Of a stretch of 64,000 nt of DNA, positions 24,754 to 60,646 are shown one piece after another (within the stretch, counting starts at the first letter, position 1; each line of letters opens with the position of its first letter). The translations under genes were made by a program, and so were the position numbers. The stretch covers positions 24,730 through 88,729 of the forward strand of contig DUPT01000056.1 in assembly GCA_012838225.1 (NCBI GenBank), written 5' to 3'. The notes below the pieces were generated by a model. That model saw only the letters and a program-made list of their open reading frames with translations. It was not told where the DNA came from and made no database searches. Source of the stretch: Tissierellia bacterium (lineage in GTDB: Bacteria > Bacillota > Clostridia > Peptostreptococcales > Acidaminobacteraceae).

Positions 24754-24787
24754 AAAAAAAGGATAGGCTCATGTGCCTATCCGGTGC
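24754..24787 (-). terminator. Intrinsic terminator after yqeB
   Basis: On the minus strand GGATAGGC and GCCTATCC pair around six bases and run into seven T. The hairpin overlaps the last codons of yqeB. Confidence 0.85.
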
Positions 24788-25577
24788 TTTCATCCAGTTT
24801 CATGAGGATGGCTTCAAGTACTCCGCCGGCCAGTCCCCGACCCTTGTCACTGATGGTCTGACAGTAGACCGGCTTCATCCTCGGGTCGATATCGCCGATC
24901 TTCATGCCGCGCGTTAGCTCGACCGTCGGATGGATCCAACCTCTTAGGACCCCATTGATCTGAGCCACCACCGGTTCACCGGCCACATGGCCCAGTACCT
25001 GTCCGGCCGATACCAACTCCCCGATCTCAAGCGTTGTCTCGAGCTTGCCATGGGCGGGGGATCGTAGGACCCGCTCGGTGGTATAGCCCAGGCTGCTGCC
25101 GGGCACATGGGTGTTCTCAGCCGCTTTTCCGTGAAAGATCAAGCGGGACAGATCATGACCGCGATTGGTCTCGATGACTACATCAGCCTGCTCTCCGGCG
25201 ATGATCTCCGGTCCCAGACCGATGCTGAGCGGAGCGATGTCTTTGGTATAGTCCGGTGTCTTTTTTGACAGGGTGGCATCGATAAAGACCGCCGGTGAAA
25301 AGGCTTCTAGGATCGCCGCCTCCTGCTCGACAACGACCGGGATCTTGTCTTGTTGCCACAGCTCGACCACCTCATCGAGTGAGGCTCTGACAGCGGTGAT
25401 CCCCTCAACGCTATACTCACCCTCATAGACGGCATTGCCGTAGCTGACCGTCCGACGGACCATCCTGGGCCGCTCGATCTCACTGACGATCACCCGGTAG
25501 CGGGCATTGTGCAGCTTTTGGATGATGGCCGAGGCCAGATCACCGCCGCCTCGAACGAGTACGATCTGGCGCTTCAT
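24777..25577 (-). CDS. yqeB: YqeB/EF2563-family selenium-dependent molybdenum hydroxylase accessory protein
   Basis: A 266-residue protein beginning MKRQIVLVRGGGDLASAIIQ, a hallmark of the EF2563/YqeB family. These genes co-occur with selenium-dependent molybdenum hydroxylases (SDMH) such as xanthine dehydrogenases of Clostridia. Its start overlaps the upstream xdhC-like stop by four bases. No hydroxylase structural gene is visible in the window. Confidence 0.92.
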   Translation of the reverse strand: MKRQIVLVRGGGDLASAIIQKLHNARYRVIVSEIERPRMVRRTVSYGNAVYEGEYSVEGITAVRASLDEVVELWQQDKIPVVVEQEAAILEAFSPAVFIDATLSKKTPDYTKDIAPLSIGLGPEIIAGEQADVVIETNRGHDLSRLIFHGKAAENTHVPGSSLGYTTERVLRSPAHGKLETTLEIGELVSAGQVLGHVAGEPVVAQINGVLRGWIHPTVELTRGMKIGDIDPRMKPVYCQTISDKGRGLAGGVLEAILMKLDESTG

Positions 25578-26396: not shown

Positions 26397-27100
26397 CTAG
26401 ATGACCTTGTCTTCTTTTAACCGGGCGATATCCTCAGGCGATAGTCCCAGAAAACGGCCATAGATCGCTTCATTGTCCTCGCCCAGTACCGGAGCCGCCT
26501 TTTGGATCGAGCCCGGTGTCTCGGAGAGCTTAATCGGGATGCCCGGTATCAGGAGCGGTCCGGCCACCGGATGATCGACTTCCACGATCATCTCGCGGTG
26601 CTTCACCTGCTCATCATCGATCACCTGATCGATGGTATTGATCGGGCCATTGGGCACGCCGTGTTGATTGAGCAGCTCCTGCCAGTCGCGCCGGGTCCAT
26701 TGTTTGAGTATATCACACACGATCGGGATCAGCTCATCATAATGTTCGCGGCGAAGCGATACCGTCTTGAAATGCTCGACCGCCAGCAGATCCTCTCGCC
26801 CGACGACTCGGCAAAACGTCACCCAGATCTCATCATTTCCGATCGCCAGCATCAGCGGCTCATCGGCCGTATCAAACACTTCAAACGGAGCGATCGAGGG
26901 ATGACGACTGCCCTCGGGCTTGGGCGTCTCGCCACTGACCGAGTAGCGGGCAATGGCATTTTCCAGCATCGACACCTGACAATCAAGCATCGACACATCG
27001 ACCATCTGGCCCTGACCGGTTTGATTGCGGTGGATCAAGGCACTTAAGATGCCGACAGCCGAAAAGATCCCGGCGGCGATATCACCGATCGAGGTACCGA
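26397..27100 (-). pseudogene. CaiB/BaiF CoA-transferase family gene, N-terminal half missing
   Basis: The frame encodes the C-terminal part of a type III (formyl-CoA transferase family) enzyme, with GTSIGDIAAGIFSAVGIL followed by HRNQTGQGQMVDVSMLD. Intact members are about 390-400 residues and begin about 150 residues earlier, including the catalytic Asp region. Upstream of about 27100 the sequence stops resembling the family and instead reads on the plus strand as fragments of two other genes. The gene is therefore a truncated remnant ending at a rearrangement joint. Confidence 0.85.
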
Positions 27101-31701: not shown

Positions 31702-33065
31702 CATTATCTCCTTTCGCCATCAAGGGTGCTTGAAAGCTCGTTTTATCAGACACCGTCTCAGCCAGTGCCAATAGTAGTCGCTCCTGATCGGGTCGGCCCA
31801 GGAGCTCATAGCCGATCGGCACCCCCAGCGGTGCCTCGGCCGTCGGTTTGGAAAAGCCGCCCGGCAGTGCCAGGGAGCAAAAGCCCGTGATCGAAGCCAA
31901 TACGCCGTTACGTCCCAGCTGAGAGCCGCCGATCGGACAGACCAGTTGCTGCTGATGAGGATAGATCAGTGCACTCAGATCATATTTATCATACAGCTCC
32001 AGAAGCTGAGAGCGCCACTGCCTAGCCGCTTCTCGCCGGGCCTGATAGGCCTCATCGTTGGTGGAGAGCGTTTGGGCGGTCCTTAGATTCTGCTCGATCC
32101 CGGGAGAAAATCGACCGGAGGCCAGGATATCAGCCAGGCTCTTGATGGGTGATCCTTCAAGCTTGGCCAGATACTGTGATTCAGATGATCCTTTAGATCA
32201 TACAGATGGACACTCACCTGATCGATCAGGTATTGATTATCAAAGCTCACCGGAAGCTCGATCAGCTCGACCTTGGATGAGAGCTTCGAGAGCACCTGCT
32301 CCATCACGGCTAAAACCTCCGGATCTGACCCAAAAAAGCTTCGCACTACGCCGACCTTAAGTCTTGGCGGCAGGCTGATCTCCCCCCACTCATCGGCCAT
32401 TACCCGGTAGAGCAGTTCGACATCGGCCAAATATCTGCCCATCGGACCGGCCGTATCTTGGGTCAGTGAATACGGAATGATCCCCTCAGACGACAATTTC
32501 CCCAACGTCGGTCTCAGGCCTATCAAATGATTGGCTGAGGCCGGCGAGCGGACGCTGTTGATGGTATCGGTCCCCAGACCCACCAACCCATAATCCATCG
32601 CCAGGGCTGCCCCCGTGCCGCCGGAGGAGCCCCCCGGGGTGCGACTCAGATCATAGGGGTTTTTGGTTTGACCCAGTACCGAGCTGATGGTTTCGCCCCA
32701 GATGGCAAACTCATGCAGGTTGGTCTTGGCCAAGATCAAGCCGCCGGCCTGACGGATCCGCCGAATGATCTCGGCGTCTTGCTTCGCCACATTATGGCTA
32801 AGGGATAAGGAGCCGGCCGTCGTGACCATCCCCAAGACATCGATATTGTCCTTGACGAGCACCGGCACACAATACAGCGGCGCCTGCGGATCGATGGTGC
32901 GAATGATTTCGCTTAGATCCGACGGCCAATTCGGATTGATCGTGATGATCGCCTTGATCGTTTGATCGAATCGCTCGATCCGGTCGATATGATACCGGAT
33001 CATTTTCTCGGGTGTGCCCCCTGTCTGATGGCCTCATGAAAGCCGGCAATACTTAGGTATTCCAT
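31694..33065 (-). pseudogene. Amidase-signature family gene with two frameshifts
   Basis: Three reading-frame pieces together make a complete amidase. The N terminus MEYLSIAGFHEAIRQG begins at an ATG at 33065 with AGGAG before it. It is out of frame with MIRYHIDRIERFDQ onward, and one extra G in the GGGGG run near 33025 would restore it. A second shift near 32175-32185 separates the middle from YLAKLEGSPIKSLADIL and the C terminus ending GDNDE. The Ser-Ser-Lys amidase residues are represented (LVKDN, GGSSGGTGAAL). Sequencing error and true decay are both possible. Confidence 0.85.
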
Positions 33066-33075
33066 CGTTATTCTC

Positions 33076-33822
33076 CTAGTCGCTTCGGTAATAGACAGCC
33101 TCTAGCTTGGCCGCTGTGAGCTGAGTAAAAAGGACAGCCGCCACTCGCTCATCCTGAAACAGCTCCGGGATGAGAGAGTGAAGAAAGGTCGTATCCTCGA
33201 GGCGATCGATCCGGTTGAATAAGACGATCACCTCCTTTGTCGGGACATTCTTCAGTGCCCCGCCGGGACACTTAAAATGATCCAGAAAGATCTCCGGAGT
33301 CATGGCTTGATCAGGTGATAGACCCAGCTGCTCGATCAGGATCTGAGGCCGATGGACCACCTGCTCGATCGGCTCAAAGAAGCCGTCGGCTCCGATGACA
33401 AGAGCGATCAGATCACTTGATTGCGGGATCGGCGGCTCATACGAAGCATAGCTCTTAAACGGCCGGCCGTTTGAACCGTCGGCCTCGACGATGATCGAAT
33501 TAAACAGCCTCTCCTTCTTTAGCCGATCGATAGCCTCAGGCGGGATGCCTTTAAGCTTCGCCTCACTTAGACGGTGCGAGAAAAGGGCTATCGGATTGGC
33601 TTTGCTGGTGACCTCCCCAAAATCGATCGGCAAAAAGCTTGGTCGAAGCATGGCAGTCGTCGATGTCAACAGCGTCCGGCCTGTCTTGGCCCGCTCCTTT
33701 GTCAGCCAATGGACCAGGGTCGTCTTACCGCCGCCACCGATCACACTGATGAGCCGGGCCGGCGAGAAATGAGCCATCACCTCGGAGAGTGATTGTGTGG
33801 TCGCTTCGGTCGTTCGCTTCAT
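33076..33822 (-). CDS. yqeC: YqeC-type selenium-dependent hydroxylase accessory protein
   Basis: A 248-residue P-loop protein with ISVIGGGGKTTLVHWL near residue 25, STTAML near 55 and IVEADGSNGRPFKSY near 111, the characteristic YqeC pattern. YqeC accompanies selenium-dependent molybdenum hydroxylases together with YqeB. It lies about 7 kb from yqeB/xdhC in the same orientation, and the intervening DNA includes the 27.1 kb rearrangement joint. Confidence 0.9.
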   Translation of the reverse strand: MKRTTEATTQSLSEVMAHFSPARLISVIGGGGKTTLVHWLTKERAKTGRTLLTSTTAMLRPSFLPIDFGEVTSKANPIALFSHRLSEAKLKGIPPEAIDRLKKERLFNSIIVEADGSNGRPFKSYASYEPPIPQSSDLIALVIGADGFFEPIEQVVHRPQILIEQLGLSPDQAMTPEIFLDHFKCPGGALKNVPTKEVIVLFNRIDRLEDTTFLHSLIPELFQDERVAAVLFTQLTAAKLEAVYYRSD

Positions 33823-40147: not shown

Positions 40148-40930
40148 ATGACACATCCGATCACACCCGATCTAACCGATCTGCCCCAAGATATCCGCAG
40201 CTTCATCGGTGAGGCCGGTGTCTATGACCATACCTATTCCGGTGACACGAGCGTCTGGCTGATCCAAAAGCCGACCGAATTCTTTATCAAGCGGGGTCAT
40301 AAGAATCAGCTTCAGCGCGAGGCCATCCTGACCTATTATTTTCATGAGAAGCAGCTTGGGCCTGAGGTCATCCTCTACCTATCCGAGGCCGAGGATTGGC
40401 TCGTGACCAAGCGCCTCACCGGTCGGGACTGCACCGATCCGATGTATCTGTCTCAGCCGGAGCGCCTGTGCGATCGCCTATCCTCTGAACTGCGCCGTCT
40501 TCATGAGATCGATCCAAGGGATTGTCCCCTCAAGAATCAATCCGGCTATCTCCTAGACAAAGCTGAAAAACACTTCCGGGAGGGCTATTTCGATCACCGT
40601 CCCTTCCCGAGTGATTGGGGCTTTCTAACGCCCGAGTCGGCCTATCAGGTGATCCAACATAACAAGCATCAGCTCCAAAACAACAGCCTGCTCCACGGTG
40701 ACTATTGTCTGCCGAATATCATTCTCGATGACTGGCGCCTCAGCGGCTATATCGATCTCGATACCGGCGGCATCGGGGATCGGATGTATGATGTGTTTTG
40801 GGGCGCCTGGACGCTTCGCCACAACCTGAAAACCGATCAGTATCGCGAGCGCTTCTTTGATGGCTATGGCCGCGACCACATAGAGCTTGAAAAAATCGAG
40901 CTGATCCGGGCGATCGTGTCCCTGGGTTGA
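40148..40930 (+). CDS. APH(3')-like aminoglycoside phosphotransferase family kinase
   Basis: A 260-residue kinase-fold protein. The Brenner motif LLHGDYCLPNIIL near residue 183 holds the catalytic Asp and Asn, and the metal-binding GYIDLDTGGIGDR follows near 202. The family includes aminoglycoside 3'-phosphotransferases, but many chromosomal members phosphorylate other small molecules, so resistance is not implied. The start follows GAGGAG. Confidence 0.88.
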   Translation: MTHPITPDLTDLPQDIRSFIGEAGVYDHTYSGDTSVWLIQKPTEFFIKRGHKNQLQREAILTYYFHEKQLGPEVILYLSEAEDWLVTKRLTGRDCTDPMYLSQPERLCDRLSSELRRLHEIDPRDCPLKNQSGYLLDKAEKHFREGYFDHRPFPSDWGFLTPESAYQVIQHNKHQLQNNSLLHGDYCLPNIILDDWRLSGYIDLDTGGIGDRMYDVFWGAWTLRHNLKTDQYRERFFDGYGRDHIELEKIELIRAIVSLG

Positions 40931-40949
40931 GCTATAGGAGGGAATTTCC

Positions 40950-42359
40950 ATGAAGCGATTGAAGGCGGGCGGTCTGGGCCTGATCCTATCGATCGGTCTT
41001 ATCATCGGGCTGAGCCGGCCGTTTCAGCCGATGCTCGGAGCCACCGGCCACTACAGCTTGATGATGCTCATCATCACGGTGGGCCTATGGATCTTTAAAC
41101 CGTTCGGCTTGTCGTTTGGGGCTGCCAGCGGTCTGCTGATGGCCGCACTACTGGCCGTTGGCGTGCCGGCCGAGGCGGTCTTTTCAGGCTTTTCCGGCAG
41201 CGCCATCTGGACGCTGATCCCGGCTCTGTTTTTCGGCTTTGCGCTGGCTAAGACCGGTCTCGGAAGACGGATCGCTGCCTTTGGCATGAAGATCGTCCCT
41301 CTCACCTACCCGGGGCTGGTCATGATGTGGGCTCTCATCGGTATCGTTTTATCACTTCTCACCCCGTCGATCACGGTTCGGGTGGTCATCGTCACACCGA
41401 TCGCTCTGCAGTCGGTCGAGCTTCTCGGTCTGGCCAAGGGCTCACGCGGTCGTTCACTGATTCTTCTGATCGCTTGGGCTATGGCCATGATCCCCGGGAT
41501 CGGTTGGCAGACCGGCTCCTTGGCCGGACCGGTCATTTCAGGTTTCTATGCCGCCAATCCGGCGCTTGGGATGATCGATTTTTCGAGCTGGGCCAGGGTC
41601 AGTCTGTTGCCGGTGGCGATCGTGACCCTACTGACACTTCTGGGCGGCTATCTGCTTCTAAGACCGGATAGCCCGCTTCGTGTCCCGCGCGATGTCTTTG
41701 AACAGGCATATCAAAAGATCGGTCCGCTGTCTCGTCATGAGCTGATCACAGCGATTGTCTTGACCTTCAGTTTCCTGATGTTTACCACCTCCGGGCTTCA
41801 CGGCTTACCGGATGTGGCGACGGTGTTGTTTGCCTGGTTTGTCTTAAATCTCACCGGGATCATCGAGCCCAAGGACATCAGCTCCGGCATCAGCTGGGAC
41901 CTGGTGGTCTTTATCGGTACGGCCATGGGCTTTGGCAGCGTCATGAACCGGACCGGCATCTCTGATTGGTTGGCGGATCACTTAGTCGGCCTGATCGCTC
42001 CGATCACTACCAGCCCCTGGATCTTCGTCTATGTCGTATTGATCGTCTTTTTCCTGTGGCGCTTTGTCGATATCGCCACCTTCATTCCGACCTTTGCCAT
42101 CATCACAGCCATCGTACCTGAGGTCAGTCGCCAATACGGCATCGATCCGTTGGTCTGGGTGCCGCTGATGGCACTGGCCCAGAATGCATTCTTTCTAAGC
42201 TACACCAATATGTTCGCCTTGGTAGCTGAGGCGAGTCTGGGCGACAAGGGCTGGCGATCATCCGAGCTCTCCCTATTCGGCATCATCTATTTTCTCGCCA
42301 TCCTGCTTGCCATGACCATTGCCATTCCCTACTGGCAGTCCCTTGGCTTGTTTAGCTAG
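40950..42359 (+). CDS. SLC13/DASS-family anion permease
   Basis: A 469-residue permease with about 12 hydrophobic helices. The family-type repeats LLTPSITVRVVIVTPIA near residue 137 and TAMGFGSVMNRTGI near 331 are visible. DASS carriers take up dicarboxylates, citrate or sulfate, often with sodium. It follows the kinase gene by 19 bases and shares its transcript. Confidence 0.88.
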   Translation: MKRLKAGGLGLILSIGLIIGLSRPFQPMLGATGHYSLMMLIITVGLWIFKPFGLSFGAASGLLMAALLAVGVPAEAVFSGFSGSAIWTLIPALFFGFALAKTGLGRRIAAFGMKIVPLTYPGLVMMWALIGIVLSLLTPSITVRVVIVTPIALQSVELLGLAKGSRGRSLILLIAWAMAMIPGIGWQTGSLAGPVISGFYAANPALGMIDFSSWARVSLLPVAIVTLLTLLGGYLLLRPDSPLRVPRDVFEQAYQKIGPLSRHELITAIVLTFSFLMFTTSGLHGLPDVATVLFAWFVLNLTGIIEPKDISSGISWDLVVFIGTAMGFGSVMNRTGISDWLADHLVGLIAPITTSPWIFVYVVLIVFFLWRFVDIATFIPTFAIITAIVPEVSRQYGIDPLVWVPLMALAQNAFFLSYTNMFALVAEASLGDKGWRSSELSLFGIIYFLAILLAMTIAIPYWQSLGLFS

Positions 42360-42364
42360 ACGAC

Positions 42365-42392
42365 AAAAACAGCCCCGGAGGGCTGTTTTAGG
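42365..42392. terminator. Bidirectional terminator between DASS and selenoprotein genes
   Basis: AACAGCCC and GGGCTGTT pair around CGGA, with AAAA before and TTTT after. Confidence 0.85.
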
Positions 42393-42410
42393 TTTGGGCA
42401 TTGATAGATC

Positions 42411-42701
42411 CTATATCAGCTTCAGCTCACCCGCCACCAACTGATGACCGGCAAACAGTTGTCGCACCAGATCGATCCGAAGGATATCGCCGCGAAATTC
42501 GAGCGGCTGATAGACATACACCGTGATATCGTCTAGCCGATAGCTATCAAACAGCTCCGGCTTATCTGCCGGCGGTGCTTCCAGCACCGTAGCCACTGAG
42601 ACCGGCAGTCATTTGCCATAGCTTGTCAGATCGATCGTGATCGACTTCAAGCCTCTACGACTCAAGTAGTCTCTCGCTTTATCAGTTATTATAATGCGCA
42701 T
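42411..42701 (-). CDS. Candidate HesB-like (CC/Se motif) selenoprotein with in-frame UGA
   Basis: From the ATG at 42701 the frame runs 96 codons to 42411 with a single TGA at codon 31 (42609-42611). The product, MRIIITDKARDYLSRRGLKS then DLTSYGK-U-LPVSV, aligns throughout with the 96-residue paralogue 600 bases upstream, where Ser sits at this position. It also fits the HesB-like/CC-Se motif family, which carries Sec or Cys there and has the downstream IDVxVY...LxIDL...LVxGxL pattern. A strong hairpin follows the UGA. Reading through gives a normal-length protein; stopping gives a useless 30-mer. Confidence 0.78.
42566..42608 (-). promoter_or_regulatory. Bacterial SECIS-like hairpin
   Basis: Immediately 3' of the UGA, an outer stem CTGCCGG/CCGGCAG encloses an inner perfect stem CGGTGCT/AGCACCG with loop GGA. 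The loop G lies 27 bases after the UGA, inside the 16-37 base range described for bacterial SECIS elements. Both stems are in coding sequence. Confidence 0.65.
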
Positions 42702-42751
42702 CGTTTCTTCCCTTTTCTCAATCATCCAGGATACATAAGTCCTTCTCCCTA

Positions 42752-42783
42752 AGAACAGACCCGGGTGGTTGGCCCGGGTCTGT
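42752..42783. terminator. GC-rich hairpin between ferritin-like and selenoprotein genes
   Basis: ACAGACCCGGG and CCCGGGTCTGT form an 11-base perfect stem with a seven-base loop. The T-run is weak, so it may attenuate, or stabilise the upstream mRNA, instead of fully terminating. Confidence 0.6.
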
Positions 42784-42787
42784 GTCA

Positions 42788-43273
42788 CTATAAGCCGATA
42801 TAGCCGACAGTGGCTTCTTTCTTGCGATCGAGCACCATCTGCAGGTGCTTTTGTTCTTCTTGGAGTAGGATCGCCACCTGGTCTTTCGCAAAGTCCGGAA
42901 ACAACCGTGCCAGTTCGTAGACGTACTGGATGGCTTCCCGCTCGACCTTTTCAGCCATATCGAGCACTTGGTGCTTGCTCTTGACCTTCTTTGCGTTTGC
43001 CAGGAAATTGCCCTCTTTATCAAAGGTAGTGCCTTCGATCAGACTTTGGACATAGGCGACCTCTCCCGGATCACTCAGCGTGATGTCTTCGTTTTGAGCT
43101 CGCTCACCCAGGGCCTGATAGATCTTGGCATGGCGATACTCATCCTGAGCCATATTCTCAAAGAATACCCCGAACTGCTTGCGGACATCCTCCGAGATGG
43201 AGTCATACAGTTGTCCGACATTCTTTTCAAATACGACAATGGCATCAAATAACTCTTTGACAGAAGTTACCAT
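42788..43273 (-). CDS. Ferritin-like/rubrerythrin-family protein
   Basis: A 161-residue four-helix protein with iron-ligand-like motifs FEKNVGQLYDSI, ENMAQDEYRHAKIY near residue 40 and LLQEEQKHLQMV near 138. It lacks the C-terminal rubredoxin CxxC domain of classical rubrerythrin. These proteins detoxify peroxide or bind iron in anaerobes. It lies between the two HesB-like genes of the cstA operon. Confidence 0.87.
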   Translation of the reverse strand: MVTSVKELFDAIVVFEKNVGQLYDSISEDVRKQFGVFFENMAQDEYRHAKIYQALGERAQNEDITLSDPGEVAYVQSLIEGTTFDKEGNFLANAKKVKSKHQVLDMAEKVEREAIQYVYELARLFPDFAKDQVAILLQEEQKHLQMVLDRKKEATVGYIGL

Positions 43274-43312
43274 AAAAACCTCCTTTTGGTCGGATCGTCT
43301 TGATCGATGATC

Positions 43313-43603
43313 CTACGTTAGTTTTAGATCACCCGCCACCAGGTGGGCTTGGCCGAACAGCTTCTTTTTTCGGTCGATCACGACCAGATTTCCCCGAAAC
43401 TCCATCGGCTCGAACACATAGATGGTGATATTGTCCACCAGGTGTTTTTCGTATTGCTCGGGCTTTTGAGGCACCGCCTCATGGACGACAGCCACCGACA
43501 CCGGCAGACTGGCGCCATAGCTTTCTAGGTCGACGGTGATGACTTGGACCTGTTTGTCTTTTAGATAGTCTAGCGCCCTATGGGTTAGCCGGAGTCTTTT
43601 CAC
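43313..43603 (-). CDS. HesB-like small protein, Ser paralogue of the selenoprotein
   Basis: A 96-residue protein starting MKRLRLTHRALDYLKDKQ. It aligns end to end with the candidate selenoprotein downstream, carrying SYGASLPVSV where the latter has SYGK-U-LPVSV. It has neither Cys nor Sec at the motif, so any redox function is lost or altered. Its start overlaps the end of cstA by 26 bases, and it is followed by the ferritin-like gene. Confidence 0.82.
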   Translation of the reverse strand: MKRLRLTHRALDYLKDKQVQVITVDLESYGASLPVSVAVVHEAVPQKPEQYEKHLVDNITIYVFEPMEFRGNLVVIDRKKKLFGQAHLVAGDLKLT

Positions 43604-45212
43604 TGGTCAAATGCTTCCAGGTCCGATAGACCAACACAATGGCCAAGATGATCAGCGCGATCGCGATCAAGAGCAGCGGAATACTGCCACCCTCACCGCT
43701 CATCAACAGGGTGGTGTGATTATAGATCAGAAGCACCAGGGCTGCCAAGGTAGCCGCAAACATGAAGATCATCGGCAAAATGATCATCTTATTGTTTCTG
43801 CCTTGACCTTTAAGCCACATCGCGACCGCCAAGAGCGCCATCGCCGCTAGGAGCTGGTTCGCCGAACCAAAGATCGGCCAAACCACTGCATAACCGCTCC
43901 ATCCGAGAAGTCCGCCCAGGATGACTGTGATCGTGGTCGCCACATACATATTCGATAGCAGCGGTGTCTGTCCCTTCTCCACCTGCTCATCAGTCGTCCA
44001 GAATTCCTGGAAGATATAGCGGCCGATCCGAGTCGCCGTATCAAGCGATGTCAAAGCAAAGGCACTGATGGCCAGCGCCACAAAGGTCTTACCAAACTCA
44101 AACGGGATCCCGATGGTGCCCATAAAGGTCGCCAGACCCGTCGAGAAGACATTGTTGGGCGTCCCCTTCATCAGCTCGAGGTATTCAGGCTGTGTCAGGT
44201 AGGCGGCTGAGATCAAGCTGACGACTGCCAGCAGACCCTCGATCAGCATCGCACCATAGCCGACGAGCTTGAGATCCTTCTCACTATCGACCTGCTTCGA
44301 GGTCGTGCCCGAGGATACGAGGGAGTGGAAGCCCGACACCGCCCCGCAGGCGATCGTGATAAAGAGCATCGGGAACAAGAAGTTATTCTTGGAGGGCATA
44401 AACGAGGTGAAGGCTTCGAGCTGGATGGTGGGTCGATACAAGAAGATCCCGATCACAGCAAAAGCGATCATGGCATAGAGTAAGTAAGAGTTGAGATAGT
44501 CACGCGGCTGCAGCAGGATCCAGACCGGCACGGTCGAGGCGATCCAGATATAGGCCATGATGACCAGGTACCAGACCTCACGAGGCGCCGAGATCGGCCA
44601 CCATTGCCCGGCCATGATGCACAGGAACAGCAGCGCCACCCCAACGATCGTCGTCAGCCACAAGGGCAGCTTGGTCTGGGTATTGACGATACCAAAGGAA
44701 ACGGCCAGCACAATGAATAAGAGTGAAGTCGTAGCCACCTGTGGGATCGTTACAAAGCTGGTCACGATGATATTAGCAAAAGCAGCCACGACCAGTAATA
44801 AGGTCAGCCAGCTGAAAATGTCGAATAATTTCTTTTCGGTCGTACCAACCGCCTTGTTGATCACAAAGCCAATCGACTTCCCTCGTTCTCTGACCGAGGC
44901 AAGCAGCGAACCAAAGTCATGGACGCCACCGACGAAAATACTTCCGATGACGACCCATAAGAAGACCGGCACCCAGCCAAAAACAGCCGCGGTGATCGGA
45001 CCGACGATCGGTCCGGCTCCGGCGATCGAAGCAAAGTGATGACCCAGCAGCACCGCCGGCCTGGCCGGCACATAGTCGATGCCGTCACTCAGTTCGTGGG
45101 CCGGAGTCGTTCGACTCGGATCAACGCCCCACTCCTTTGCCAGCCAGGAGCCATAAGTAATGTATGCAATAACAAATAGTACAAGGGCACCCAAGACAAG
45201 AATAATTGCCAT
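43578..45212 (-). CDS. cstA: CstA-family carbon starvation/pyruvate-peptide transporter
   Basis: A 544-residue membrane protein with about 14 helices. CstA landmarks include LLGHHFASIAGAGPIVGP near residue 54, VWVVIGSIFVGGVHDFGS-like sequence near 90 and a conserved AFALTSLDTATRIGRY near 390. CstA proteins import pyruvate or peptides during carbon limitation. Unlike enterobacterial cstA, it is followed by a HesB-like gene instead of ybdD. The AT-rich region upstream of the operon likely carries control sites. Confidence 0.93.
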   Translation of the reverse strand: MAIILVLGALVLFVIAYITYGSWLAKEWGVDPSRTTPAHELSDGIDYVPARPAVLLGHHFASIAGAGPIVGPITAAVFGWVPVFLWVVIGSIFVGGVHDFGSLLASVRERGKSIGFVINKAVGTTEKKLFDIFSWLTLLLVVAAFANIIVTSFVTIPQVATTSLLFIVLAVSFGIVNTQTKLPLWLTTIVGVALLFLCIMAGQWWPISAPREVWYLVIMAYIWIASTVPVWILLQPRDYLNSYLLYAMIAFAVIGIFLYRPTIQLEAFTSFMPSKNNFLFPMLFITIACGAVSGFHSLVSSGTTSKQVDSEKDLKLVGYGAMLIEGLLAVVSLISAAYLTQPEYLELMKGTPNNVFSTGLATFMGTIGIPFEFGKTFVALAISAFALTSLDTATRIGRYIFQEFWTTDEQVEKGQTPLLSNMYVATTITVILGGLLGWSGYAVVWPIFGSANQLLAAMALLAVAMWLKGQGRNNKMIILPMIFMFAATLAALVLLIYNHTTLLMSGEGGSIPLLLIAIALIILAIVLVYRTWKHLTSEKTPANP

Positions 45213-45221
45213 AAACTCCTC

Positions 45222-45719
45222 CTATGATTTGATATCCAGGAACCGATATGGTTGCTGTTTTCGGTGCCTGGAATATATGATCTGTCCGGTTGTATCCACC
45301 ATGACTAGCCCGATATGTATCCATCCCTTGAAGCCGAGTTTGAACATTTTCTGATATATGAATCGACGAACATAATCGGCGGTCTCCGGCTGAATCGAAT
45401 CGACATGACAGATGATCGTATGATCACTCGACATATGATCCTGATCGGGCAGCGTCCGCTCCACGATTGTCTCCGTTAATTCCGTCATCAAGCGCTCGAT
45501 CTGCTCCCGAGAGGGTGCGCTGAGTCGAATCAGATAGAAGTATTCATACGTATCATAGCGATACTGGACATTCTTCTTTAACAACACATAGCGCTCGGTG
45601 GTGCGCTTGAACGAGGCCTTAGTATCGACCATGGTACTGCCCACCATCACATTATCTTCAAAATCAAAATTGGAAAACAGCCTCGCCTTGAGACGTTCTC
45701 TATACTCCTCAAACTGCAC
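45222..45719 (-). CDS. Conserved hypothetical protein, first gene of cstA operon
   Basis: A 165-residue soluble alpha/beta protein (MQFEEYRERLKARLFSNFDF). I recognise no family. It ends nine bases before cstA, so it is cotranscribed. The sequence has one Cys-His pair (IICHVDS) and no membrane segment. A regulatory or accessory role for CstA is a guess from position. Confidence 0.75.
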   Translation of the reverse strand: MQFEEYRERLKARLFSNFDFEDNVMVGSTMVDTKASFKRTTERYVLLKKNVQYRYDTYEYFYLIRLSAPSREQIERLMTELTETIVERTLPDQDHMSSDHTIICHVDSIQPETADYVRRFIYQKMFKLGFKGWIHIGLVMVDTTGQIIYSRHRKQQPYRFLDIKS

Positions 45720-57464: not shown

Positions 57465-59834
57465 CTATTTCAGCTTTTGTTTGGTTTTGAAAAAGGCCTG
57501 CCACGGATCGGCCTTTCGGCTGCGAAGGGCCTTTTTTATGGTCATATCGCCCGGTGCCACCCGGCTCAGCTCCGACCAGGCGATCGGCCAAGAGATCGGC
57601 GCCCCCTCCCGAGCTCGCACCGAATAGGGAGCCACACTGGTGGCACCGCGGCCATTTCTCACCCAATCGACATAGATCTTGCCCTTACGCTTCTCCTTAC
57701 GCATATTCGAGGTATAGCGATCCGACCACTTCTGCTCCATCGCCAGAGCGACGTTTCGACTGAAGTCTCTCACCTCATCCCAGCCGGCCTGCGGCGTCAG
57801 CGGAACGACCACGTGGTAGCCCTTCCCGCCACTGGTTTTTAGGAAGGCCTCGAGCCCGAGCTCATCCAGGATGGCTTTTAGATCACGCACGCCTTGACGC
57901 ACCTGCTTTAGCTCCATCCCCTCATCCGGATCGAGATCGAAAACGATCAAATCGGGTTTTTCCAGCTCATCGACCCGGCTGCCCCAGCCGTGAAACTCGA
58001 TCGTACTCAGCTGAACAGCCTGCCTTAGACCCGCCGCATCCTCAAGATAGATATAGTCGGCTTCATCCCCATCGCTTTGGGTGATCCGTTTCGAGGCCAG
58101 CCCGGCCATCGAGTCCTGGTAGTTCTTCTGATAGAAACACTCACCGTGGATTCCATCAGGACACCGGACCAATGACAGCAATCGGTTTTGAATAAATGGC
58201 AGCATCCGTTCGGCCATTTTTTCATAGTAGTCGGCCAGATCCTGTTTGGTATAGTCTTCAAACATGATCTTATCCGGACTGGTCAGCTTGATGGTTTCAT
58301 TCGCTTCAGTGGACTTTTTCTTGGACTTAGTCGGCGTCTTTTGCTCCCGGACGACCTCTGTTGAGGCTTTATCACTGCGCAGTCCCTGATAGCTGGCTTG
58401 TCGGACGAGTCCATCCTCGGTCCATTCGGTAAAATCGACCTCGGCGATAAGCGATGGCCTGACCCAGGTGATGGTCTCTCCTCGGCGCTCGCTTGGCGCT
58501 TCTTTTAGGGGTGAGGTCTTCCTGATCAGACCCGTTAGCTTCTGATGGAGCTCTTTGGCGGACGCTTCGCTAAAGCCTGTCCCGACCCGCCCGGCATAGC
58601 GCAGCTCCCCACCTTCTTGGACGCCCAGGAGAAGCGCCGATAGGGCTCGGGTCCTTTTTTCGGTCTGGGTAAAGCCGACGATCACCAGCTCCTGGGAGGC
58701 CCGGCATTTGATTTTAAGCCAGTCGCGATTTCGGCCGGCGATATAGGGCCGATCGAGCCGCTTACTGATAATGCCCTCCATCCCCTGTGAGCAGACCTGA
58801 TCGAGTAGATCCGTCGGATCCCCCTGATAGGCTCGACTGAATTGGATTGCTTTCGCCTGTTGCCTCTTAAGCATTGTCTCCAGTCGGTCTCGTCTGTCTT
58901 TGAGGGGGAGATCACGAAGATCCTCGCCATCGAATAACAGGTCGAAGGCCATGAAGCTGGGGGAGACTTTTTTCTTCTGTTTGATTGCTTGCTGCAGGGC
59001 CTGAAAGCTCGAGCGTCCATCGACCTGCACGATGACCTCGCCGTCGATCACAGCCGAGATATCCCACTGCTTGAGCTCATCCGCGATGGCGGGAAACTTC
59101 GAGGTATAGTCTTGTTTATTGCGGGTCAATAGCTTAACGTCACCGTGATCGACATAGGCTCCGATCCGATAGCCGTCGTACTTTAGCTCGTGGATCCATT
59201 GATCGCCTTGTGGGACGTCGTCTCTTAGCGTTGCCTTTTGGACCTCATAAAACTCAAGCTCCCTCGCTTCCCCCTGAGCGATCTGATCCATCGTCCGGCG
59301 GGTCCGGATGCTGGTAGTAAAGCCGGTGGTCCCGACCTTTCCTTGAGCCAACTCATCTCGCTCCTTGATCAGCAGCCAGTTCTTATCGTCTTCGCCGGGC
59401 TTTGGCTTCATTCGGACCAGCGTCCACTTGCCCTGGAGTCTCTGACCGTGGAGGATGAACTTTAGGCTGCCTTCCTTTAGGCCCCGGGCAATGTCTTCGT
59501 TTGGTTGCGGCTCCCAGGTGCCTTCATCCCACAGCATGACGGTCCCGCCGCCGTATTCTCCCTTGGGGATGGTGCCTTCAAAGTCCTTATAGTCATAGGG
59601 ATGATCCTCGACCCTGACAGCCAGTCTTCGGTCCTTGGGATTGAACGAGGGACCCTTGGGCACGGCCCAGCTCAGCAGCACCCCCTCCCACTCCAAGCGA
59701 AAATCAAAATGAAGCCTCGAGGCGGCGTGTTTTTGCACGACAAAGATCAGGCCCTCATCGGAGGATTTCTTTTTCCCCTTCGGCTCGTCGGTTTTCGTGA
59801 AATCCCGTTTTTCATCATAGGTCTCTAGGCTCAT
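57465..59834 (-). CDS. ligD: DNA ligase D (PE-ligase-polymerase)
   Basis: A 789-residue multifunctional NHEJ enzyme. Residues about 20-150 are the 3'-phosphoesterase domain (HFDFRLEW, GTIPKGEYGGGTV). Residues about 210-500 are an ATP-dependent ligase with the nucleotidyl-lysine in HELKYDGYRIG. Residues about 520-789 are the primase-polymerase, with IVFDLDPDEG and GKGYHVVVPL. The order matches the full-length Pseudomonas type, not the Bacillus LigD lacking PE. Its start overlaps the Ku stop by four bases. Confidence 0.95.
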   Translation of the reverse strand: MSLETYDEKRDFTKTDEPKGKKKSSDEGLIFVVQKHAASRLHFDFRLEWEGVLLSWAVPKGPSFNPKDRRLAVRVEDHPYDYKDFEGTIPKGEYGGGTVMLWDEGTWEPQPNEDIARGLKEGSLKFILHGQRLQGKWTLVRMKPKPGEDDKNWLLIKERDELAQGKVGTTGFTTSIRTRRTMDQIAQGEARELEFYEVQKATLRDDVPQGDQWIHELKYDGYRIGAYVDHGDVKLLTRNKQDYTSKFPAIADELKQWDISAVIDGEVIVQVDGRSSFQALQQAIKQKKKVSPSFMAFDLLFDGEDLRDLPLKDRRDRLETMLKRQQAKAIQFSRAYQGDPTDLLDQVCSQGMEGIISKRLDRPYIAGRNRDWLKIKCRASQELVIVGFTQTEKRTRALSALLLGVQEGGELRYAGRVGTGFSEASAKELHQKLTGLIRKTSPLKEAPSERRGETITWVRPSLIAEVDFTEWTEDGLVRQASYQGLRSDKASTEVVREQKTPTKSKKKSTEANETIKLTSPDKIMFEDYTKQDLADYYEKMAERMLPFIQNRLLSLVRCPDGIHGECFYQKNYQDSMAGLASKRITQSDGDEADYIYLEDAAGLRQAVQLSTIEFHGWGSRVDELEKPDLIVFDLDPDEGMELKQVRQGVRDLKAILDELGLEAFLKTSGGKGYHVVVPLTPQAGWDEVRDFSRNVALAMEQKWSDRYTSNMRKEKRKGKIYVDWVRNGRGATSVAPYSVRAREGAPISWPIAWSELSRVAPGDMTIKKALRSRKADPWQAFFKTKQKLK

Positions 59835-60646
59835 GACGACTTCTTCCGAGTGGACTTGGCCTTCGTCTTTTTGGCCGGCTTCTTATCGATGCTCTTTTGG
59901 AGCAGGTCCATGATATCGACGACATTGTCGGTCGGTTCGACCTCTTCGACCACCTCTTCTTTGATCCCCTTGCCCTTGGCTTTTTCCTTGATCCGCTTCA
60001 TCAGCGCTTCGCGGTACTCATCATGATAGGCTGAGGGATCCCAGGCCTCACTCATATCATTGATCAATTTGATCGCCAGATCCATTTCTTTTTTAGTCGA
60101 TTTGACATCCGTCGGCACCCTTAGGTCCTCCACGGCCCGAAGCTCCTGATGAAACCGGATCAGATTCAGGATCAACACCGTATCCTCGGGGTAGATGGCC
60201 GCTAAGTAAGCTCGAGTCCGGATGACCACCCGAGCAATCGCAATTTTATCTGTCTTGATCAGTCCATCACGCAGCAGGGCGTAGGCCTTCTCGCCACCTT
60301 TTTGTGACTGAACATAATACGGCCGATCAAGATATTTCAGTGCCAGCTCAGACCGCTCAATAAAGGTCTCGATGTCGATTGTCTTGGTGGCTTTGACATC
60401 GGCCTGAGCGAAATCCTCATCCGTCACCACGACATAATTGTCATCGGAAAACTCAAAGGCCTTCACGATCTGATCCCACGGCACCTCCTCACCGGTCTCT
60501 TCATTGACTCGCTCATACCGGATCCGATTCTCATCGCGTGAATCGATCAGGTTGAATTTTAGATCGTTCTTTTGTTCGGCGGTGATCAGATCGACCGGGA
60601 TGTTGACAAGTCCAAAGCTGATCGCACCTTTCCATACGGGTCGCAT
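59831..60646 (-). CDS. ku: Ku protein for non-homologous end joining
   Basis: A 271-residue bacterial Ku. It begins MRPVWKGAISFGLVNIPVDL and has the core EFSDDNYVVVTDEDF and the LRVPTDV segment, then a Lys-rich C-terminal tail that in other bacterial Ku proteins binds DNA and the ligase. Operon with ligD. Together they repair double-strand breaks, typically in spores or stationary phase. Confidence 0.95.
   Translation of the reverse strand: MRPVWKGAISFGLVNIPVDLITAEQKNDLKFNLIDSRDENRIRYERVNEETGEEVPWDQIVKAFEFSDDNYVVVTDEDFAQADVKATKTIDIETFIERSELALKYLDRPYYVQSQKGGEKAYALLRDGLIKTDKIAIARVVIRTRAYLAAIYPEDTVLILNLIRFHQELRAVEDLRVPTDVKSTKKEMDLAIKLINDMSEAWDPSAYHDEYREALMKRIKEKAKGKGIKEEVVEEVEPTDNVVDIMDLLQKSIDKKPAKKTKAKSTRKKSS

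Follow-up and report, generated by a model that had tools for sequence, protein, structure and literature searches.

A candidate selenoprotein gene related to the CC/Se motif family and located near cstA in a Tissierellia bacterium

Is the UGA that interrupts a small gene near cstA in this Tissierellia bacterium a stop codon, or is it read as selenocysteine (Sec)? The window, meaning the whole 64,000-nucleotide stretch that was analyzed (contig DUPT01000056.1 of GenBank assembly GCA_012838225.1, positions 24,730 to 88,729), belongs to contig C37 of a metagenome-assembled genome (MAG) of 1.85 Mb (77 contigs, 96.78 complete, 0.49 contamination). An earlier note on this DNA had proposed a selenoprotein gene here, full-length at 96 codons apart from a single in-frame UGA, and had given no strand. 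The gene was placed on the minus strand, where it runs from an ATG at 42701 to a TAG at 42413-42411 over the 96 codons claimed, with UGA31 as its sole interruption. Sec is by far the best reading that the sequence suggests for UGA31, and translation as Sec is considered very probable.

Open reading frame (ORF) calling with translation table 11 split the gene in two, with one piece of 61 aa (42411-42596) and another of 59 aa (42609-42788). The public protein set contains the 61-aa piece (P0003) as one identical sequence recorded on 15 contigs, which is the truncation that had been expected of automatic annotation. This bears indirectly on the other finding that the earlier note had named as counting against its claim, namely additional disrupting mutations in strains of the species. 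Relatives matched the gene over its whole length, with E 1.6e-32 for a genome of the same genus (G001, a Tissierellia MAG from GenBank). The 30 residues N-terminal to the UGA were aligned with each of three relatives, and each alignment scored above 2000 of 2000 shuffles, so both halves of the gene look coding.

The read-through protein (P0001) was searched against 393 genomes of the order, giving 56 match rows in 45 genomes with the gene itself included. Exactly one internal TGA was present in 30 of these rows and none in the other 26; no row contained an internal TAA or TAG. Alignment of the 40 places supplied with loci (the gene itself and 39 relatives) put UGA31 in the Sec/Cys column of the family, as the earlier note had stated. 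This column holds 16 UGA (15 without the gene itself), 18 Cys, 2 Gly, 2 Ala, 1 Asn and 1 Ser, the Ser belonging to a paralogue in the window; both Ala rows have a UGA one column earlier. The residue pair at the site is CU or GU in most UGA relatives and KU in this gene, where the motif continues as ULPV. The position of the UGA in the Cys/Sec column, together with the alignment of the 30 preceding residues, indicates more than chance. A selA match above cut-off was found in 26 of 27 genomes with a UGA-interrupted match vs 219 of 366 others (Fisher p 4e-5, uncorrected for kinship). The lone UGA genome without one, G117, is 79% complete.

A strong hairpin with a loop G at +27, which had been noted earlier, was recovered immediately downstream, starting with the first base after the UGA. 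Pairing begins at +1 with a lower stem of 7 bp, and a side loop of 12 nt separates this from an upper stem, also of 7 bp, that carries a GGA triloop. The minimum free energy (MFE) is −22.2 kcal/mol for the whole hairpin and −9.6 kcal/mol for the apical hairpin alone. For the bacterial selenocysteine insertion sequence (bSECIS), the available part of a 2026 review (PMC13188914, Figure 2) gives a loop of 3-9 nt, an upper stem of 4-16 bp and a G in the first two loop positions. The same part adds a spacing of 16-37 nt, an MFE ≤ −7.5 and the loop pattern N1-G-G-N-N2 with N1 and N2 paired. The hairpin agrees with all of these published constraints as far as that part gives them, including N1-G-G-N-N2 closed by a U-A pair.

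In shuffle controls z was −2.5 for 51 nt and −3.0 for 48 nt, with 3/200 and 1/200 shuffles equalling the fold; over a 71-nt stretch other lower pairings were favored and the apical hairpin was retained. The equivalent stretch of G001, which has Cys at the site and encodes the same 13 amino acids (LPVSVATVLEAPP), folds to only −8.2 kcal/mol, with 5 bp left of the apical stem. A simple bSECIS test was passed by 8 of the 16 aligned UGA places and by 1 of the 24 others. An Rfam scan of the whole window gave no match above gathering score, hence no Rfam family backs the SECIS. Taken alone, the hairpin is moderately unusual and supports the case for Sec without carrying it. It resembles the bSECIS of E. 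coli type and that of SelD selenoproteins in following the UGA directly and in having G among the first loop positions. The stem sequence differs from the E. coli type, which is usual between bSECIS elements according to the available part of PMC13188914.

Absence of selA, selB and selC from the genome had been named as the finding that would count against a selenoprotein, and the genome was searched for these genes and for selD. Consecutive selD, selA and selB genes were found on contig C45 of the same MAG (357.7, 540.4 and 310 bits, all above curated cut-offs), with a tRNA-Sec of anticodon UCA ∼3 kb beyond them (76.9 bits, above cut-off). Judged by gene content, the organism should be able to make selenoproteins. 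Its selD (L017 1480-2994, contig C45) is interrupted in frame by a UGA at codon 18, after which comes a bSECIS-like hairpin of 6 bp whose loop, GGU, lies at +23. This is the same layout as in the gene studied here, and selD is likely to encode a selenoprotein as well. The presence of yqeB and yqeC in the window, reported before as a sign of selenium-linked metabolism, was confirmed by their TIGR03309 and TIGR03172 matches (Table 1).

Table 1. Features of the window discussed in the text (window coordinates)
Feature	Position	Strand	Remarks
Candidate selenoprotein gene	42411..42701	minus	96 codons + TAG; UGA at codon 31; whole-length relatives
UGA codon 31	42609..42611	minus	in family Cys/Sec column; paired with E. 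coli IscA Cys35 in hhalign
Predicted bacterial SECIS hairpin	42566..42608	minus	starts at +1 after UGA; MFE −22.2 kcal/mol; fits constraints in the available part of PMC13188914
Apical part of hairpin	42573..42589	minus	7-bp stem, GGA triloop closed by U-A, G at +27
Intrinsic-terminator-like hairpin with T run, after UGA gene	42366..42389	minus	
11-bp GC-rich hairpin, then UUCUU, between rubrerythrin-like and UGA genes	42755..42783	minus	not called by terminator scan
Rubrerythrin-like gene between the two paralogues	42788..43273	minus	PF02915, 28.7 bits, cut-off 22.8; same position in G001
Paralogue with Ser at site	43313..43603	minus	96 aa, no Cys; GTG start overlaps cstA end by 26 nt
cstA-family transporter gene	43578..45212	minus	PF02554, E 9.6e-160
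165-aa gene just upstream of cstA	45222..45719	minus	no family above cut-off
yqeB, selenium-dependent molybdenum cofactor gene (context only)	24777..25577	minus	TIGR03309, 316.6 bits, cut-off 220
yqeC, selenium cofactor gene (context only)	33076..33822	minus	TIGR03172, 124.2 bits, cut-off 73.05

The label 'HesB-like (CC/Se) family' that had been given to the gene holds in part. CC/Se (NF041239) and HesB-like (TIGR01911) are separate entries in the available part of PMC13188914, where the CC/Se family is described as first predicted in Moorella thermoacetica. With C substituted for U the protein scored 35.7 bits against NF041239, short of the cut-off of 40; its closest relative, L021, scored 37.5 bits, the more distant L025 and L029 scored 51.1 and 48.7 bits, and all 44 sequences of a family alignment matched at E ≤ 0.01. 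The protein thus appears to be a sub-threshold relative of the recognized CC/Se motif family. It shares with that family whole-length similarity, UGA or Cys in the same column and a length of ∼95 residues. The family motif is CC, CU or CxxU with a partner Cys, whereas this protein has no Cys beside the Sec or two before it, and differs further in having a cstA-linked paralogue, its Ser twin. There is no Cys anywhere in the protein, and the predicted selenol would be its only thiol-type residue. The claim that the candidate is new applies to the gene, which is unannotated, and to its branch, which is unusual in being free of Cys and linked to cstA; the family itself was already recognized as one of selenoproteins. 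A Cys-free, cstA-linked branch with a Sec/Ser pair is best described as an unusual variant of that family and no new kind.

Membership of TIGR01911 was rejected, as no match was obtained at E ≤ 0.001 in this genome and none up to E 10 with hmmscan; the motif UxGP that the available part of PMC13188914 gives for that family also differs from ULPV. The gene is HesB-like only in its predicted fold, which is of the overall IscA/SufA/HesB type in the predicted model and is shared with TIGR01911, including a Sec aligned to the position of IscA Cys35. Alignment of the family profile to E. coli IscA with hhalign placed the Sec site at Cys35 with E 7.9e-4 and a probability of only 24.7, which offers a lead that the two sites may be equivalent. 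Cys35 of IscA is a cluster-ligand position. The A-type iron-sulfur carriers IscA and SufA have three Cys ligands, of which only one position has a counterpart in the UGA gene; the C-terminal Cys pair has none. A search of solved-structure sequences with the 44-sequence profile returned no match up to E 1, and no Pfam family was matched by the UGA gene or by the closest relatives scanned. Among the 44 family members, PF01521 (Fe-S_biosyn) was matched by 3 and PF23084 by one; relatives also bear PF28096 as a precomputed label.

Four other explanations of UGA31 were weighed. A recent pseudogene, in which a Cys codon turned to UGA and the function is left to the Ser paralogue, would need one base change; a full-length paralogue lies nearby and G001 manages without a second copy. 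Such a gene would nevertheless have to have lost its reading frame in the one column where relatives have UGA, just ahead of a bSECIS-like hairpin and in a genome with full Sec machinery, and no second lesion was found, both halves are conserved and the downstream piece is identical on 15 contigs. This makes decay improbable. A sequencing or assembly error at a TGT or TGC Cys codon is very improbable: the assembly is a MAG and the closest relative has TGT at the site, yet the 61-aa piece, which can be called only with the stop present, recurs on the 15 contigs, and the hairpin fits the bSECIS model whereas the G001 stretch for the same amino acids folds only weakly.

There is a similarly slight chance that the UGA is a true stop and that the downstream ORF, starting with a GTG at 42596, encodes a separate short protein. 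Mechanical ORF calling does yield these 61 residues and public protein sets include them, but the conserved fold would lose its first helix and the equivalent of three strands, relatives are full-length as a rule, and the sequence upstream of the UGA is conserved as coding. Genome-wide reading of UGA as Trp or another amino acid has a negligible probability. No point in its favor was found; TGA is otherwise an ordinary stop, ending 14 of the 47 non-overlapping window ORFs of at least 200 aa, the tRNA-Sec has the anticodon UCA, and none of the aligned relatives has Trp in the column.

On the preferred explanation, Sec readthrough, the genome's own SelA, SelB and tRNA-Sec would decode UGA31 as Sec with the aid of the downstream hairpin. 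The product would be full-length at 96 residues, a relative of the CC/Se motif family with a predicted IscA-like fold, and its lone selenol would act at the position of IscA Cys35. More weakly, the protein may partner the CstA-family transporter in redox chemistry or metal binding through this one selenol, and might form a mixed oligomer with the Ser paralogue. The explanation as a whole is judged probable. The claim of a candidate selenoprotein is supported by the UGA column, the hairpin fit and the full set of sel genes.

Several observations weigh against Sec readthrough. Sec insertion into this protein is itself a prediction, and the sel genes lie on a different contig of the MAG from the window, so that their assignment depends on binning. 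Folds at least equally stable were obtained from 140 of 5000 synonymous recodings of the stretch; among the 2846 TGA triplets of the window, 48 have a downstream apical hairpin of equal or greater stability, and 136 pass the simple bSECIS test, 52 of them also with the G[G/U] pattern. Half of the aligned UGA places (8/16) do not pass that test. The protein does not reach the NF041239 cut-off and is without the partner Cys of the family, and G001 has selA yet carries Cys at the site and has no second copy.

The paralogue with Ser at the site, which had been described as equal in length, is indeed of 96 aa and is 50% identical to the UGA-gene protein over 94 columns. G001 has a single copy, with Cys, right after cstA and followed by the rubrerythrin-like gene, and no UGA copy; the positional counterpart of its Cys copy is the Ser copy of the window genome. 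Since G001 has selA and still uses Cys, Sec is not needed throughout the genus. A tree of 11 sequences left 4 of 8 inner branches open and placed the UGA copy outside the Cys and Ser copies (support 84/83); on this tree the Ser and UGA copies may or may not stem from a recent duplication. The public set holds another Ser copy (P0010) and two fragments without the N-terminal region, P0004, beginning three codons past the UGA site, and P0013, which also starts after the site. These two might be further UGA genes, and the three sequences together suggest that the Sec/Ser pair is present in further species. The pair, set beside the single Cys gene of the sister species, provides a natural comparison for the contribution of the selenol.

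The gene had also been placed in a cstA operon. On the minus strand the order is the 165-aa gene, cstA, the Ser paralogue, the rubrerythrin-like gene and the UGA gene, and the best NCBIfam model for cstA is the pyruvate/proton symporter CstA, with a score below cut-off. The common strand and the conserved linkage of the paralogue favor an operon, whereas the strong hairpin at 42783-42755 intervenes. This hairpin is possibly an attenuator or weak terminator, and it is uncertain whether the UGA gene would share an operon with cstA.

In the GTDB family, cstA matches were found in 34 of 41 genomes (37 rows), and neighborhoods were counted for the 30 rows with loci. A family gene lies directly after cstA in 10 of these 30 loci, with Cys in six genomes (G001, G002, G003, G009, G010 and G033), UGA in three (G006, G007 and G008, all of one genus) and Ser in the window genome; G011, whose cstA fragment is not among the 30 loci, shows this arrangement too, at the fragment's end. 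The UGA genes of G006, G007 and G008 (L075, L076 and L072) have one in-frame UGA each, with the motif CNSU (family CxxU) in the former two and GNSU in G008. The search with the window protein had not detected these three, which came to light only when the regions downstream of cstA were scanned. The hairpins after them are weak in the simple test (best −1.9 kcal/mol), with 48-nt MFEs of −8.2 to −11.3.

Different small proteins were observed at 14 of the 20 other cstA loci (L077-L096). These are conserved among themselves, ∼91-103 aa long and end near KKSxWEE..LDMDP; two of them were scanned and matched cory-CC-star NF041419 below cut-off. The pyruvate transporter CstA of E. coli works with a small adjacent protein, YbdD, according to the available part of PMC5847655. 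YbdD is encoded directly after cstA, like the Ser paralogue and its relatives; the UGA gene differs in having no sequence match to any Pfam family. Small proteins after cstA in several lineages, taken with YbdD, indicate that a small partner protein occupies the position following cstA; in the present case the family that fills it would be of the Cys/Sec type. The rubrerythrin-like neighbor common to G001 hints at a redox setting.

A partner role for the UGA-gene protein itself is plausible on these grounds, but tentative and rather less than an even prospect. Against such a role, 20 of the 30 cstA loci have no family member in the flanks examined, and the family also has members that are not near cstA. 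The UGA copy lies two genes beyond the cstA-adjacent Ser copy and is preceded by the strong hairpin. An unlikely further idea is a split selenium switch, in which the small IscA-fold partner beside cstA would have become two proteins in this lineage; the thiol-free Ser copy keeps the structural place beside CstA and the Sec copy supplies one selenol. Were it true, the mixed complex would tie CstA-type uptake to selenium supply or redox state, with sister species using one Cys protein for this and another genus one cstA-adjacent Sec protein.

A literature search outside subscription papers found no paper linking cstA with this selenoprotein family; of the listed papers that mention both CstA and a selenoprotein, most are eukaryotic by title, and one concerns CcpA of C. 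difficile (PMC3510511). A near-identity search of a plasmid collection with 41900-43620 found nothing. The link to cstA is the first concrete functional lead for the CC/Se family. The locus adds a candidate selenoprotein gene that ordinary annotation truncates, and with it a branch of an uncharacterized selenoprotein family whose residue at the chalcogen position switches among Cys, Sec (as predicted) and Ser beside one transporter gene.

On the plus strand at 40148-42359, between the UGA gene and a 557-aa gene, the window carries genes for an APH-fold kinase and a sodium:anion symporter. G001 has neither there, its rubrerythrin-like gene being followed directly by the 557-aa gene.

Three further observations were made on the minus strand of the window. 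An amidase-like ORF of 306 aa (32083-33003) has best NCBIfam matches that span only about the first half of much longer models, and is perhaps truncated or frameshifted. A CoA-transferase-like ORF of 213 aa (26397-27038) aligns with no more than the C-terminal half of its best model and is perhaps a remnant. Adjoining genes for a ligD-type ATP-dependent DNA ligase and Ku, the bacterial end-joining pair, are located at 57465-60646.
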